Shown here piece by piece: positions 11,935 to 20,394 of a stretch of 26,188 bases of DNA. Source of the stretch: a virus; the IMG/VR virus record IMGVR_UViG_3300035665_000211, positions 1-26,188 of that record; one strand, 5' to 3'. Both the position numbers and the translations under genes were made by a program. A model generated the notes under the pieces. That model ran no database searches, had not been told where the DNA came from, and was given only the letters and a program-made list of their open reading frames with translations. Within the stretch, counting starts at the first letter, position 1, and every line of letters begins with the position of its first letter.

Positions 11935-12119
11935 AAAGCAAGGATGAGTTGGCGATGCAGGTGAGGAAGGAATGGGATGAGAAGGGATATAGATGGAGGC
12001 TGTGGGTTGAAACTGGCGGATTCAGATCCGAGATATTTTGTTATGAGTGGAATGAGAACGAATACTCCAAATGCGTCAGAGAATTGGTTGACCACGCTTA
12101 CCAGATGCAGAGCGTATGA
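11931..12119 (+). CDS. Small protein upstream of the DNA methyltransferase
   Basis: 62 residues, with ATGA overlaps at both ends. It begins with a charged helix (SKDELAMQVRKEWDEK) and then strand-like segments with several aromatic residues (YRWRLWVETGGF, IFCYEWNENEY). No family recognised. Direct coupling to the methyltransferase gene makes a supporting role possible. Confidence 0.55.
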   Translation: MKSKDELAMQVRKEWDEKGYRWRLWVETGGFRSEIFCYEWNENEYSKCVRELVDHAYQMQSV

Positions 12120-13591
12120 AGTACCTATCCGTATGTTCTGGCATTGAGGCAGCGTCCAAGGCTTGGGAGCCTATCGGATGGGAGCCAGTTGCGTTTTCAG
12201 AAATAGAGCCATTTCCGTCAGCGGTGCTGAAGCATCATTGGCCGAAAGTACCAAACCTAGGAGATATGAGTAAATATGAACAATGGAATATACAAAGCGG
12301 ATCAGTTGACCTTCTGGTCGGAGGCACACCCTGCCAATCCTTTTCAGTCGCAGGACTCAGGCAAGGACTCAAAGACCCCAGAGGTAATCTTATGCTTACG
12401 TACCTTGGGATCGCTGAACGTCTCAAACCTCGATGGCTTGTCTGGGAAAATGTCCCTGGTGTCTTGTCATCTAACGGAGGAAAAGATTTTGGTTCCTTCC
12501 TCGGAGCGTTGGGGGAGCTGGGGTATGAGTGGGCATACCGAGTCTTGGACGCTCAATGGTTCGGAGTGGCCCAAAGACGCAGACGTGTGTTCGTTGTCGC
12601 ACATCTTGGAGAAGGGAACCTTGCCGCAAAGGTTTTATTTGAGTCCGAAAGCGTGTGCAGGGATACTCCGCCGAGCAGAGAAACGCGGAAAGGAGTTGCC
12701 ACCGATGTTGAAGCAGGCGTTGGAGTTAGTCCAACAATCACCCAGTGCAAAGGGAGCCGAGGAGGATGTAGTGACGAAGCCTTGATGGAGATTAAGGCAG
12801 TTCACGAAGCGATTAACGCTGGCATACCAGATGTATGTGCAACGATTGACTGCGGACTAGCAAAACAAGTTGGCAAACAACTGACGCAACAAGCTGAAAG
12901 TTTTTACTTTCCAATCCCAATCCACGATCAAGCCACACGCAACGCTGGCAAGCGTGGTAACAAGCAAGACGGAAAGGGAAATGGACTTGGGGTGGGTAAG
13001 CCAGGTGATCCTGCGCCCACCCTAACTAAAGGAGACAAGCACGCAATTGCTTTTCAAACTTCCGAGCTTCGACTTACAGGAAAGCTAACCGAGAAATCTG
13101 TTTGCCCAACTCTCAAGGCAAACACAAAGGCTGGCGATACTGAGGTCAAGGTTGTCCTCTACGAAAACCACCCCAACGACAGCCGAGTAACTGGCCCACA
13201 CGATGTCGCTCCTAGTTGCGTATCACGATATGGAACTGGTGGTGGGAATGTGCCGTTGGTGCAGGAGGCGATTGCCTTTGAGCCTGGCATTGCAACTAGA
13301 GAAGGCAACGAGAGCAGATTTGTAAAAGAACTATCTCCGACATTGCGGAAGGAGATGGGGGATAATCAGGTGGCGGTTAGTGATAACCGAATGGCAGTAC
13401 GCAGGCTCACACCGAGAGAATGCGAACGACTGCAAGGCTTTCCAGACGATCACACGCTAATTCCTTGGCGTAACAAGCCAGCCGATCAATGCCCCGATGG
13501 TCCGCGATACAAGGCTCTTGGTAACTCTATGGCCGTGCCGTGCATGGCTTGGATTGGGAAAAGGATTGACGCAGTAGAAAAAACAAAATAG
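12116..13591 (+). CDS. dcm: Cytosine-C5 DNA methyltransferase
   Basis: 491 residues. All key motifs are present: motif I SVCSGIEAA (5-13), catalytic Cys73 in GGTPCQSFS (motif IV), WENVPG at 110-115 (motif VI), QRRRRVFVVAH (motif VIII, about 153-163) and, after a long variable target-recognition region, RLTPRECERLQGFPDD (IX) and YKALGNSMAVP (X). It methylates cytosine in a short DNA site using SAM; no partner restriction enzyme is seen, so the likely role is protection of phage DNA or the first step of base modification. The segment 12276-12785 also encodes a second protein in another frame. The ATG overlaps the previous stop (ATGA). Confidence 0.93.
   Translation: MKYLSVCSGIEAASKAWEPIGWEPVAFSEIEPFPSAVLKHHWPKVPNLGDMSKYEQWNIQSGSVDLLVGGTPCQSFSVAGLRQGLKDPRGNLMLTYLGIAERLKPRWLVWENVPGVLSSNGGKDFGSFLGALGELGYEWAYRVLDAQWFGVAQRRRRVFVVAHLGEGNLAAKVLFESESVCRDTPPSRETRKGVATDVEAGVGVSPTITQCKGSRGGCSDEALMEIKAVHEAINAGIPDVCATIDCGLAKQVGKQLTQQAESFYFPIPIHDQATRNAGKRGNKQDGKGNGLGVGKPGDPAPTLTKGDKHAIAFQTSELRLTGKLTEKSVCPTLKANTKAGDTEVKVVLYENHPNDSRVTGPHDVAPSCVSRYGTGGGNVPLVQEAIAFEPGIATREGNESRFVKELSPTLRKEMGDNQVAVSDNRMAVRRLTPRECERLQGFPDDHTLIPWRNKPADQCPDGPRYKALGNSMAVPCMAWIGKRIDAVEKTK
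12276..12785 (+). CDS. Overlapping gene nested inside the C5 methyltransferase
   Basis: A 169-residue frame lying wholly within the methyltransferase gene, in the +1 frame relative to it. ATG 12276 has AGGAG about 11 bases upstream. Its sequence is protein-like: GRW-type and SGM motifs (ERWGSWGMSGHTESWTLN, about 77-94), then SLSHILEKGTLPQRFYLSPK and ACAGILRRAEKRGKELP near 106-145. From general knowledge, similar proteins (patterns like 'LSDILE.G..P.R(F/Y)YLS..AC.GILRRAE.RGK') recur in phages, often next to or overlapping dcm-type genes; their function is unknown to me. The nested reading covers motifs IV to VIII of the methyltransferase, so the DNA is constrained in two frames. I judge it a real gene, not a chance open frame. 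Confidence 0.7.
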   Translation: MNNGIYKADQLTFWSEAHPANPFQSQDSGKDSKTPEVILCLRTLGSLNVSNLDGLSGKMSLVSCHLTEEKILVPSSERWGSWGMSGHTESWTLNGSEWPKDADVCSLSHILEKGTLPQRFYLSPKACAGILRRAEKRGKELPPMLKQALELVQQSPSAKGAEEDVVTKP

Positions 13592-18265: not shown

Positions 18266-18430
18266 ATGCCAAAAGTAGCCAAAAAAACACGTCAGGATGC
18301 CTCAAAATTGAGCAGAAATGCCGTTTTTAAGCGTCTTCGCGCGAAAGGTGATGCACGAGACCTTCCAGTAGTCAAATTTAGGGTTGAGGAGCTAGGAAAC
18401 CGAGCCTGCTGTTGCCGTATTGGTCGCTAG
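18266..18430 (+). CDS. Small basic protein before the convergent junction
   Basis: 54 residues from ATG 18266, just after the previous stop; a longer frame from 18239 would overlap that gene. Lys/Arg-rich (PKVAKKTRQDASK, NAVFKRLRAKGDARD) with a CCC cluster near the end. No family recognised. It ends where the GCTNCCGTTT repeats begin and faces the minus-strand cassette. Confidence 0.45.
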   Translation: MPKVAKKTRQDASKLSRNAVFKRLRAKGDARDLPVVKFRVEELGNRACCCRIGR

Positions 18431-18481
18431 GCTGCCGTTTGCAGCACCCTTATAGGGCTAACGCTCCCGCGAAAGGCTACG

Positions 18482-18652
18482 CTACCGTTTGGGTGTCTGC
18501 GCTTCCGTTTGACGCTCCCGATACTTAGCCCAACGGATACCCACCGCCTTCTGATAGTGTTCTTTAGGTCGCACCTTCTGCGGACCCTTGACGCTCCCGC
18601 CTTTACGCCCCAAGCGCGAAAGGTAGGCTTTGATAATTTCGTCTTCAGTCAT
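18482..18652 (-). CDS. Small KGG-like basic protein
   Basis: 56 residues. ATG 18652 was chosen because it overlaps the stop of the gene upstream (ATGA); two ATGs further up are less likely. After a short acidic helix (TEDEIIKAYLSRL) comes GRKGGSVKGPQKVR and then HYQKAVGIRWAKYRE, resembling small bacterial and phage 'KGG / RWAKYR' proteins that are basic and may bind nucleic acids. The last residues and stop codon are made from the GCTNCCGTTT repeat. Last gene of the minus-strand cassette. Confidence 0.65.
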   Translation of the reverse strand: MTEDEIIKAYLSRLGRKGGSVKGPQKVRPKEHYQKAVGIRWAKYRERQTEAQTPKR

Positions 18653-18855
18653 CTTAAATCCCATAATTTCATCCACTCAAAACATTCCCGCTTGGTTTTG
18701 TATATTGCATCCAATCCATTGCCAAGATGCTGAATCCACCAATGCGGGCGGTGCGGATACATCGTTCCCAACATTTCGGATGGCTTTCTGATATAACCAT
18801 ATTCAAAGCATCCTATCCTTTTTATTCTTTTGCTAATTCTTTTTTTAGTTTTCAT
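18649..18855 (-). CDS. Small basic/aromatic protein of the minus cassette
   Basis: 68 residues, ATG 18855 with a strong ribosome binding site (AAGGAG, 5 bases before). The N-terminus is highly basic (KTKKRISKRIKRIG); the rest has many aromatic residues (RPHWWIQHLGNGLDAIY, then CFEWMKLWDLR). No family recognised. It overlaps the next gene by 4 bases. The spacer upstream contains a large hairpin and one GCTGCCGTTT repeat. Confidence 0.65.
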   Translation of the reverse strand: MKTKKRISKRIKRIGCFEYGYIRKPSEMLGTMYPHRPHWWIQHLGNGLDAIYKTKRECFEWMKLWDLR

Positions 18856-18914
18856 ATTCTCCTTATAGGCTGCGCTGCCGTTTATAGGATGCCCTGGCGA
18901 GAGCCAAAATCCAT

Positions 18915-18951
18915 CCTCCGTCCACCTCCGCTACAAGGTGGATCGAGGAGG
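18915..18951 (-). terminator. Intercistronic hairpin, possible terminator or processing site
   Basis: TCCACCT (18921-18927) pairs with AGGTGGA (18936-18942), extended by CCTCC/GGAGG outside a small internal loop. It begins 2 bases after the stop of the minus-strand gene ending at 18954, and a short TTTT appears on the minus strand about 6 bases after the stem. This could end or reduce transcription, or be cut by RNase III. Confidence 0.5.
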
Positions 18952-18953
18952 GA

Positions 18954-19280
18954 CTAGCTGGCTACAAGTTCCCCTATATTTACCGATGTAGCATCCTTGA
19001 GGCTTGCCATAAACTGCATCGCCTTCCTAGCTGACTCGAACTTTAACTCCACAGACTCAACCCAAGATGAATTGAGTTTAATTGATACCCAAGCAACTTC
19101 GTTCAGAGTCTCTGGACACTCGCAAAACTCTGAAACCAAAACTGCAACCATTTCATTATAGAAACGCTTGACGATGAAGTCGCAACTTCCACCAGTTGCT
19201 ATGCATTCAAGGTTTAACTTGTCTGCATACTCTCCAACTTGTTTTCCGATGTTGTGTGACTCCCAATAGTTTTTGCTCAT
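18954..19280 (-). CDS. Unknown protein of the minus cassette
   Basis: 108 residues from ATG 19280, with AAAGAAAGGA 10 bases upstream as part of a leader shared with two other genes of the cassette. Mixed alpha/beta composition with several Cys (CIATGGSCDF, CECPE) and strand-like WVSIKLNSSWVESVELKF, then a helix (SARKAMQFMASL). No family recognised. As a gene with its own conserved leader next to a promoter-driven cassette it is a candidate early or host-takeover gene. Confidence 0.65.
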   Translation of the reverse strand: MSKNYWESHNIGKQVGEYADKLNLECIATGGSCDFIVKRFYNEMVAVLVSEFCECPETLNEVAWVSIKLNSSWVESVELKFESARKAMQFMASLKDATSVNIGELVAS

Positions 19281-19326
19281 TGTGCGTGTGTCCTTTCTTT
19301 TCTGTTTGTTAGGCCATCTCTATCGA
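19281..19326 (-). promoter_or_regulatory. Conserved leader, copy 3
   Basis: On the minus strand it reads TCGATAGA, then 38 bases ending in the AAAGAAAGGACACAC ribosome-binding segment and the ATG. It matches the leaders at 19804 and 20299 in both sequence and spacing. Confidence 0.6.
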
Positions 19327-19332
19327 GTTTGA

Positions 19333-19366
19333 CCTCTCCCACCCTCGGTTAAGAGGATGGACGAGG
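19333..19366 (-). terminator. Intercistronic hairpin
   Basis: CCACCCTC (19339-19346) pairs with GAGGATGG (19353-19360) with one wobble, and CCTC/GAGG extend the stem beyond a 2x2 internal loop. It begins 5 bases after the stop of the 27-residue gene and sits just before leader copy 3. No T-run follows, so mRNA processing or protection is as likely as termination. Confidence 0.5.
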
Positions 19367-19371
19367 GAAAA

Positions 19372-19455
19372 CTATTTCCAAACCAACTCAATCCAGCTTG
19401 CTAGGCTCAAGCCTAACAAGATCCCAAACATCAAAATGGTGTATGCCTTAATCAT
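19372..19455 (-). CDS. 27-residue membrane microprotein
   Basis: ATG 19455 is preceded by GAAAGGAGGTG, one of the best ribosome binding sites in the window, 4 bases before the start. The peptide is almost all hydrophobic from residue 4 to 25 (AYTILMFGILLGLSLASWIE), a clear single membrane helix with a Lys at each end. It overlaps the previous microgene by 8 bases. No family recognised; membrane microproteins of phages often disturb host membrane functions, but this is not shown here. Confidence 0.6.
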   Translation of the reverse strand: MIKAYTILMFGILLGLSLASWIELVWK

Positions 19456-19582
19456 TCCACACCTCCTTTCTCACTACATAATCTTGGATGCCGTGGAACT
19501 TCCTCCACATTTCGGCTCGGCTGCGTTCCATAAAACGGCAGACGAATGAGCCATTTCGTGAGTAGATGGAGAAGCATATCAC
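19448..19582 (-). CDS. 44-residue basic microprotein
   Basis: GTG 19582 overlaps the upstream stop (GTGA), with GGAGAAG 6 bases before it. The peptide has a protein-like composition: SRNGSFVCRFMERSRAEMWR, then KFHGIQDYVVRKEVWND. An ATG at residue 18 could be an alternative start. Another frame in the same stretch also fits an ATGA overlap, but its composition is less convincing. Role unknown. Confidence 0.45.
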   Translation of the reverse strand: MICFSIYSRNGSFVCRFMERSRAEMWRKFHGIQDYVVRKEVWND

Positions 19583-19803
19583 GATTGCTTCTCCATTACT
19601 CCCTCTGCCAGCAATTTGTTTTCACCAGTTCCGTGCCAAGGCACTAGCTCGACACGATATGATGTCGAATTGGTTTTCTTGTCGTGTTGCAAGGCAACCT
19701 TTACTGCTCCATTCCAGCAAGCAGAGTGGGTCACCAATTCACGATGCCCACATCGTGTTGCCATACCCTTCGCTCCTTGAATCGTTCCGTATAATGCACT
19801 CAT
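19579..19803 (-). CDS. Small phage protein, 'ATRCG' type
   Basis: 74 residues from ATG 19803, chosen over an upstream start because the conserved leader with AAAGAAAGGA ends there. It starts with ALYGTIQGAKGMATRCGHREL, split here as a turn-rich N-terminus with Cys, then SACWNGAVKVALQHD and YRVELVPWHG, suggesting a small beta protein. Similar short proteins with 'G(T/S)xxGxxxxATRCG' and 'WNGxVxV' patterns occur in phages and plasmids; function unknown to me. Confidence 0.65.
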   Translation of the reverse strand: MSALYGTIQGAKGMATRCGHRELVTHSACWNGAVKVALQHDKKTNSTSYRVELVPWHGTGENKLLAEGVMEKQS

Positions 19804-19851
19804 TGTTCTATGTGTCCTTTCTTTTTGGTTTCTTTTGTTCCAGCCTATCGG
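19804..19851 (-). promoter_or_regulatory. Conserved leader, copy 2
   Basis: On the minus strand: CCGATAGG, then 40 bases including AAAGAAAGGACACA, then the ATG. Same order and spacing as copy 1 (40 bases) and copy 3 (38 bases). Confidence 0.6.
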
Positions 19852-19852
19852 C

Positions 19853-19891
19853 CAGACCGAAACACACTCTTGCAAATGTGTTCGGGGTCTG
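19853..19891 (-). terminator. Intercistronic hairpin
   Basis: CAGACC (19853-19858) pairs with GGTCTG (19886-19891), and ACACA (19862-19866) with TGTGT (19877-19881); the stem between is imperfect with small bulges, and the loop is about 10 bases. It lies 5 bases after the stop of the first cassette gene and directly before leader copy 2. A terminator, attenuator or RNase site are all possible. Confidence 0.5.
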
Positions 19892-19896
19892 ATCGC

Positions 19897-20298
19897 CTAG
19901 TTTTTTAACACTTTGTAATTCTCCCCAAATATCTCAACTAATTCCTCGTGGTTCAATCCATAATCCTTTTCTGGATCTGCTTCGAATCTTCCGCAGTCAG
20001 ATTGAAAAGGATTAGTCACAAAGATTCCTTTATGAGTAAACCCGCAAACGTGCGTACAATGTCCGTCGAGAGAATACAAACCAAATTCGTCTGCCTCCGC
20101 ATTGTCGTAATCCTCCACATCTCCTCCTTGCTCCTCACATATTTTCCTTAACTGATCGAATGTGGCTTTATCGACTCGGACGCAGTCCCAGCCGTTCCAA
20201 GTTTGCCCAGCATAATATCCGATATAATAGATGGGATCATCATATCGGAATATAACTTTATTGTCTCCGCAATCGTCTGGTGTTTTGATTTTGTTCAT
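19897..20298 (-). CDS. First gene of the minus cassette, acidic unknown protein
   Basis: 133 residues from ATG 20298, with TAAAGGA 11 bases upstream. It is acidic, with strand-like DNKVIFRYDDPIYYIGYY, WNGWDCVRVDKATFDQL, an acidic middle (EEQGGDVEDYDNAEADE) and Cys/His (GHCTHVCGFTH). The Cys/His pairs could bind a metal. No family recognised. As the promoter-proximal gene it should be the most strongly expressed of the cassette, typical of an early host-acting protein; that role is inference. Confidence 0.65.
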   Translation of the reverse strand: MNKIKTPDDCGDNKVIFRYDDPIYYIGYYAGQTWNGWDCVRVDKATFDQLRKICEEQGGDVEDYDNAEADEFGLYSLDGHCTHVCGFTHKGIFVTNPFQSDCGRFEADPEKDYGLNHEELVEIFGENYKVLKN

Positions 20299-20346
20299 TG
20301 TGCTTGGCTTCCTTTATTTTGTTTTTATCTCGGAAGTTCCTATCGG
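20299..20346 (-). promoter_or_regulatory. Conserved leader, copy 1
   Basis: On the minus strand: CCGATAGG, then 40 bases with AAATAAAGGA, then ATG. In this copy CGATAGG can also pair with CTTATCG about 9 bases upstream, forming a hairpin near the predicted 5' end of the transcript. Confidence 0.6.
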
Positions 20347-20365
20347 ATCTCCCTCGATAAGATGC

Positions 20366-20394
20366 ATACTATATCGGCTTGTCTATTAGGTCAA
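20366..20394 (-). promoter_or_regulatory. Sigma70-like promoter for the minus cassette
   Basis: On the minus strand, TTGACC (5 of 6 matches to the -35 consensus) is followed after 15 bases by TATAGT (5 of 6), or after 17 bases by TAGTAT (4 of 6). The predicted start lies near 20355-20360, just before the leader hairpin. This is the best host-type promoter seen in the window. It lies between the divergent cassette and the terminase operon; no equally good plus-strand promoter was found there. Confidence 0.6.

Follow-up and report, generated by a model that had tools for sequence, protein, structure and literature searches.

Organization of the cassette

The source record is a linear IMG/VR entry of 26,188 bases, which was analyzed over its full length and is called the window here. 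Judged from its sequence, it belongs to a tailed phage, with an SU10-type portal and both terminase subunits, small and large, recognized. The recognized genes lie on the plus strand; the minus-strand exception is a cassette of seven small ORFs, flanked by the primase/helicase gene on one side and the gene of the small terminase subunit on the other. All seven genes of the original prediction were present, as ORFs of 133, 74, 44, 27, 108, 68, and 56 amino acids (aa) at 18482–20298. Four of the seven lie directly behind a leader (A to D, described below; the place behind each one is called a slot), and the other three begin at overlapping stop and start codons. A nucleotide search of annotated phages gave no relatives of the window, and leader B alone found a single chance-like match of 24 nt there. 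Relatives were gathered with the large terminase in viral contigs; 227 were found and 80 were kept (their loci carry an L number).

The slot A gene (19897–20298, minus strand, as are all cassette genes) encodes the 133-aa protein, which has relatives of 69%–100% identity in 13 contigs and, besides these, two weak short matches. Pfam gave no match for it, and its structure model was poor (mean pLDDT 51) and was kept out of the fold search. In L078, the slot A gene encodes no more than a relative of the C-terminal part of this protein. Slot B holds three genes. The first (19579–19803, 74 aa) belongs to a family also present in L104 and L124; its ATG start suffices, and a TTG-started ORF of 98 aa is not needed. 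The second (19448–19582, 44 aa) has a GTG start that overlaps the preceding stop, and the third (19372–19455), read from the sequence with an ATGA overlap, would encode a hydrophobic peptide of 27 aa, MIKAYTILMFGILLGLSLASWIELVWK. The stop codon of this last gene overlaps the first bases of leader C. The slot C gene (18954–19280, 108 aa) has relatives in six contigs. Slot D contains an ORF of 68 aa (18649–18855) and a gene of 56 aa (18482–18652, ATG at 18652), of which a GTG-started ORF of 64 aa is an extension; the family of the second gene is the commonest behind leader D. Searches of Pfam, PHROGs, and NCBIfam gave no known function for any of the window's seven cassette proteins, in agreement with the earlier remark that they could not be assigned.

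Directly past the last gene, a stretch of 36 nt (18447–18482) is 97%–100% identical in many relatives and better kept than its surroundings; it is possibly a 3′ end or a processing signal. Short repeats of the form AAACGG(C/A/T)AGC(G/C)(C/T)AG occur in the D leader and past the last gene (18426–18440, 18476–18490, and 18869–18883 in the window), with one to six copies in most relative loci. A AAACGGCAGCGCAG-like motif is found on the minus strand at 18883, 18510, 18490, and 18440.

Head promoter and leaders

A single sigma70-like promoter had been proposed at the head of the cassette, and TTGACC-17-TAGTAT (20366–20394, minus strand, reading from 20394) was the only one found there. Promoter-like matches in the region are not above chance (four found, 4.6 expected); the position of the head promoter is kept in many relatives, in the forms TTGACC, TTGACT, TTGATG, or TTGCTA, a spacer of 17, and TAGTAT, TAGATT, or TATCTT. 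Leader A (20299–20360) follows directly behind the promoter and consists only of a small-loop hairpin with a GATA loop (20325–20360; −16.3 kcal/mol, z −4.2), then an A-rich segment and the ribosome-binding site (RBS). The primary transcript is predicted to begin with this hairpin. Heads without hairpin A (L033, L038, L056, L058, and others) look leaderless, with the −10 box, 6–7 nt, and then ATG; their first coding stretch is well kept and continues into different ORFs.

In leaders B, C, and D, a small hairpin (H2), usually GATA-looped, comes immediately after a large one (H1), and an unstructured A-rich stretch, the RBS, and the ATG follow. Leader B (19804–19896) has H1 at 19853–19891, a GATA hairpin H2 at 19839–19856, and the RBS at 19811–19824; the outer stem of its H1 is weak. 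Leader C (19281–19373) has a long H1 at 19326–19373, its GATA-looped H2 at 19311–19335, and the RBS at 19287–19300. Leader D (18856–18955), missed in the original prediction, has a long H1 at 18908–18955 and H2 at 18886–18917 with the loop TCTC. The long H1 of leader C is built of AGUUU/AAACU, a 2 × 2 loop, CCUC/GAGG, a G·A mismatch, and nine pairs; in C and D the long H1 has about 20–21 layers, or two helical turns, with an internal loop 10–12 layers from the base. In all three leaders, H1 and H2 have sequence in common, the 3′ arm of the former and the 5′ arm of the latter overlapping, and the full forms of the two hairpins are therefore mutually exclusive. RNAfold z-scores on the sense strand were −2.8 to −4.2.

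The element first noticed in these leaders was the hexamer CGATAG, whose significance lies in position and comparison, not in count. As a word it occurs 12 times in the window, where 7.55 occurrences would be expected, which is near chance. Copies on the minus strand at 20345, 19850, and 19325 stand 41, 41, and 39 nt before an ATG, and in relatives many different cassette genes carry it 35–43 nt upstream of their start codon. AAAGAAAGGACACA occurs exactly twice, with 0.36 occurrences expected at up to two mismatches. Among distinct sites in relatives, CGATAG was closed by a stem of at least three pairs at 39 of the 44 located 35–44 nt before an ATG and at only 15 of the 59 located elsewhere. 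The hexamer is the closing pair and loop of a small stem that changes with compensation (CUC-GATA-GAG, UUC-GATA-GAA, CGC-GATA-GCG, GCC-GATA-GGC, and UCC-GATA-GGA), and it recurs because it caps this stem. The stem is kept with other loops as well: leader A of relatives has GAUA, GCUA, AUUC, or UAUC, and the window's D leader has TCTC. We rejected CGATAG as a sequence signal, since its count is near chance and other loops replace it in relatives.

The idea of a leader shared by three genes was thus right in its layout and ATG spacing, both kept in relatives, and wrong in its number: there are four leaders in the window, because D has the same architecture with the loop TCTC, not GATA. The hairpins reported at 19853, 19333, and 18915 exist and are part of the leader of the next gene, not of the 3′ end of the previous one. 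The comparison with relatives that had been proposed as a check showed that the head promoter is kept, as are the leaders and the way they are spaced. Plain terminators, one outcome that had been set against the prediction, were rejected because no T-run stands behind the stems. That the region holds nothing more than intergenic terminators, or is an ordinary operon with chance hexamers, agrees with the count of CGATAG; it is contradicted by the covariation, model specificity, and conserved order reported below, and we give it next to no credence.

No Rfam 15 family exceeded its gathering score (best E 0.22, far below), and the leaders are a new conserved RNA family. The lack of a matching family also bears on antitermination, in which nascent tandem hairpins, similar to HK022 put or nut sites, would modify RNA polymerase for read-through. 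Put sites are paired stem-loops as well, and here tandem hairpins are found near the promoter and again before later genes. However, the cassette minus strand contains no terminator-like site (one was found on the plus strand; 4.1 expected), and the leaders sit from stop to start at a fixed distance to the ATG. We regard antitermination as quite unlikely.

Covariation and specificity of the leader models

In the alignment of leader C, 99.8% of the cells of the long H1 were paired, compared with 45%–64% in slid controls. Six of its pairs, with 29 cells, changed on both sides, and none of the 500 shuffles reached that; the alternative of H2 plus the top of H1 is kept at 97.2%. In leader D, 58 cells changed on both sides, outer-stem pairs among them, and in leader B all cells (100%) were paired and seven changed on both sides; all these counts are of cells, not of independent events. 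Over the stem cells of the B, C, and D alignments, we counted 114 G-U and no A-C combinations, so selection acts on the RNA in the cassette sense.

Part of the sequences used here had also served to build the covariance models. In 939 kb searched on both strands, the strong matches of these models were nearly all on the cassette strand of the cassette. The set of 14 records was mostly of 35–39 kb. Model R2 matched all 14 records, with one to three matches per record; every match lay in the cassette, and one of them was the mirror image on the opposite strand. Model R3 matched 10 of the 14. The models of C and D match each other, and because they find each other we treat these two leaders as one family.

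Fixed order of leaders and exchange of genes

The leader order A-B-C-D was never broken in 79 relative loci, and no leader was doubled, except in two loci where the C and D forms could not be distinguished. The genes behind the leaders differ. Slot B had 11 unrelated gene families over 33 loci, slot C had 25 over 52 loci, and slot D had 27 over 52 loci; 12 families were shared between leader types, in every case between C and D forms. In loci with different slot B genes, identity was 89% over the leader but fell to 62% over the first 85 nt of the gene and to 64% at the upstream gene's end, the last two values being close, by our estimate, to what the method gives for unrelated DNA. In loci with different slot C genes, the respective values were 73%, 62%, and 68%. 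Sequence comparison thus shows a succession of folded RNA leaders that stays fixed while the small, unrelated genes behind them are swapped.

Such a pattern might be expected if the leaders were exchange sites at the DNA level, recombination islands or attC-like elements whose folding serves recombination. As such sites would have it, sequence homology does not extend past the start codon on one side or into the upstream gene on the other, and members of one gene family can stand behind different leaders. The 114 G-U against no A-C combinations and the fixed spacing of RBS and ATG point instead to mRNA; the slot order is fixed, unlike that of integron arrays, and a search for tyrosine integrases found none in the 14 records, with all 14 controls detected. 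We therefore consider exchange sites very unlikely as the function of the leaders; homologous exchange through them may be a by-product.

A probable Ocr-like protein among the slot genes

For nearly all of the slot genes that were compared with Pfam, PHROGs, and NCBIfam, no function could be assigned. The slot C gene of L037 had a RusA-like or sliding-clamp-like match. Immediately downstream of leader B, L060 and L015 carry a gene, absent from the window, for a protein of 128 aa; it occupies slot B of L060/L168 and L015/L175 and stands behind leader A in L173. The L060 protein matches PHROG_2568, an Ocr-like anti-restriction family (E 3.4e−5), and tblastn in annotated phages gave weak matches, mostly annotated as Ocr (E 0.04–0.8). 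With a profile of 16 relatives, the best PDB match was T7 Ocr (E 0.0094, residues 18–125, almost the whole protein). The AlphaFold model (pLDDT 91.5) had as its best PDB match in Foldseek Ocr 7eew_B (probability 0.80, TM about 0.5, E 0.56). Each of these lines is weak; jointly, the sequence and model comparisons make it probable that the protein is Ocr-like.

The original prediction pointed to this cassette as a place to look for anti-defense factors, and this suggestion gained support from the probable Ocr-like gene in the slots of relatives. Because one of the swapped genes resembles a restriction-blocking protein, we read the slots as a store of counter-defense genes, which the predicted likeness supports without proving. 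In L170, the Ocr-like gene lies behind another tandem-hairpin leader, upstream of 3001 (CCCCUUCGGGG then UUUGCGGUUGGCUACCGCAAA), which suggests further leader types.

Phage type and host

The cassette had been likened to the early region of T7-like phages. A search for the single-subunit RNA polymerase (PF00940) found none in the 14 records (26–39 kb, not proven complete), and the positive control, phage T7, was detected at 9.9e−110. Since no T7-type polymerase was found while the control was positive, the phage is, by its sequence, not T7-like, and the portal is of SU10 type; that part of the prediction is not supported. The idea of processing may hold even so.

The search for a host through TerL gave no close relative in genomes. 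The alignment search reached 11 loci in 84,980 genomes, 10 of them in Verrucomicrobiota, at 33%–54% identity; these 10 belong to Akkermansia, Luteolibacter, Haloferula, or a Verrucomicrobiaceae MAG. As 10 of the 11 terminase loci belong there, the host is probably a member of Verrucomicrobiota, at the level of phylum, and the phages form a large uncultured group most likely infecting Verrucomicrobiota. Elsewhere in the window, 12116–13591 is by its sequence a probable DNA cytosine methyltransferase gene, whose counterpart in L159 matches DNA methyltransferase PHROGs; this is in line with restriction pressure in the host.

A proposed model of leader processing

We favor, with somewhat better than even confidence, a hypervariable accessory operon with one host-type promoter and a structured leader per slot, in which H1 would be cut and H2 would refold, and which would carry several counter-defense genes. 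The long H1, with about 20 layers and two helical turns in C and D, would form, which co-transcriptional folding would favor as the first structure, and RNase III would cut its internal loop. This cutting is proposed as the likely step. The cut would free the 3′ arm of H1, which would refold into H2. By analogy with the T7 R1.1 site, processed 5′ ends are predicted near 19859 (B), 19338 (C), and 18920 (D), and the processed leaders would be mostly 52–63 nt, longer in D. Transcription from the head promoter would open the primary message with leader A, a hairpin of the same type, so that the 5′ ends of all messages would be alike: a short protective hairpin and then an open RBS, whether the mRNA is primary or processed. 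In this way, each swapped-in gene would obtain a stable, well-translated message whatever its neighbors.

The geometry of an RNase III site, a two-turn irregular duplex with an internal loop, is kept by covariation in C and D; its occupancy is low in C, and the outer stem is weak in B. The computed ensemble share of the long H1 was 0.17 in C, 0.52 in B, and 0.57 in D. When the leaders were cut virtually at the internal loop, a position of our own choice, the products showed three unpaired bases, H2, and then an open RBS. A 5′ hairpin formed in 25 of 25 distinct B leaders, 51 of 51 C leaders, and 44 of 57 D leaders, compared with 20%–22% of shuffles; the other 13 D leaders gave none. With rare exceptions, the hairpin of B and C started 3 nt in. 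The RBS was 89%–98% unpaired after the cut, and most B and C leaders then measured 52–63 nt.

These folds can also be read without any cut. The leaders would then be structured 5′ segments whose intercistronic tandem hairpins insulate translation or block exonucleases, RNase III taking no part. The minimum free energy form of C, which is the top of H1 plus H2 without the long duplex, agrees with this, as does an RBS that is mostly open in uncut leaders too. The outer stem of H1, however, is kept by paired changes (UA to CG at pair 14–57 in C; pairs 14–54 and 20–48 in D), and these speak against uncut leaders because a stem that never formed would need none. H1 and H2 also overlap in all three leader types. 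We think this reading rather unlikely. A more general form of the cut-and-refold proposal is an expression rack, in which bistable, self-trimming leaders of a new family would turn every cistron into an independent message protected by its 5′ hairpin, and counter-defense genes would be freely exchanged between fixed slots; we put it forward tentatively, at a little less than an even chance.

Comparison with known systems

Small tandem RNA hairpins are known from early leaders with HK022 put and lambdoid nut sites. The leaders described here differ from them in that no terminators were found, several copies are tied to start codons, and Rfam has no match. Integron attC sites resemble them in that small genes flanked by folded elements are exchanged, and differ in that here no integrase was found, the slot order is fixed, the mRNA strand folds with G-U pairs, and the distance to the RBS is kept.

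There is a likeness in structure with the RNase III sites R0.3–R1.1 among the early genes of T7, irregular intergenic hairpins with an internal loop before the RBS of small genes read from host-type promoters; Ocr (gene 0.3) is encoded at a comparable position there. R1.1, an RNA of 60 nt whose internal loop is asymmetric, is cut into pieces of 47 and 13 nt, the shorter one from the 3′ end (PMC6121014); the cut proposed here would be at the same place. In contrast to T7, where cutting occurs, cutting is a proposal here, the leaders carry a second, overlapping capped hairpin and are mutually homologous, and the cassette has fixed slots and runs against the direction of the other recognized genes, in phages where no T7-type polymerase was found.

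The literature search gave one close concept, the shared promoter of SIRV2 (PMC11065993). There, as in other archaeal viruses, most early genes stand behind a common promoter segment, which served to uncover new anti-defense genes (PMC11065993). That segment is a DNA promoter standing before most early genes, whereas here one head promoter is combined with RNA leaders between genes. Besides offering a two-state mechanism open to testing, the leaders point to about 60 slot-gene clusters, at least one of them probably Ocr-like; the phages concerned probably infect a phylum whose phages have been little studied. In both systems, one conserved regulatory segment precedes many unrelated, fast-changing genes and is usable as bait (PMC11065993), and the leader models could pull counter-defense candidates directly from metagenomes, as was done with the SIRV2 promoter.
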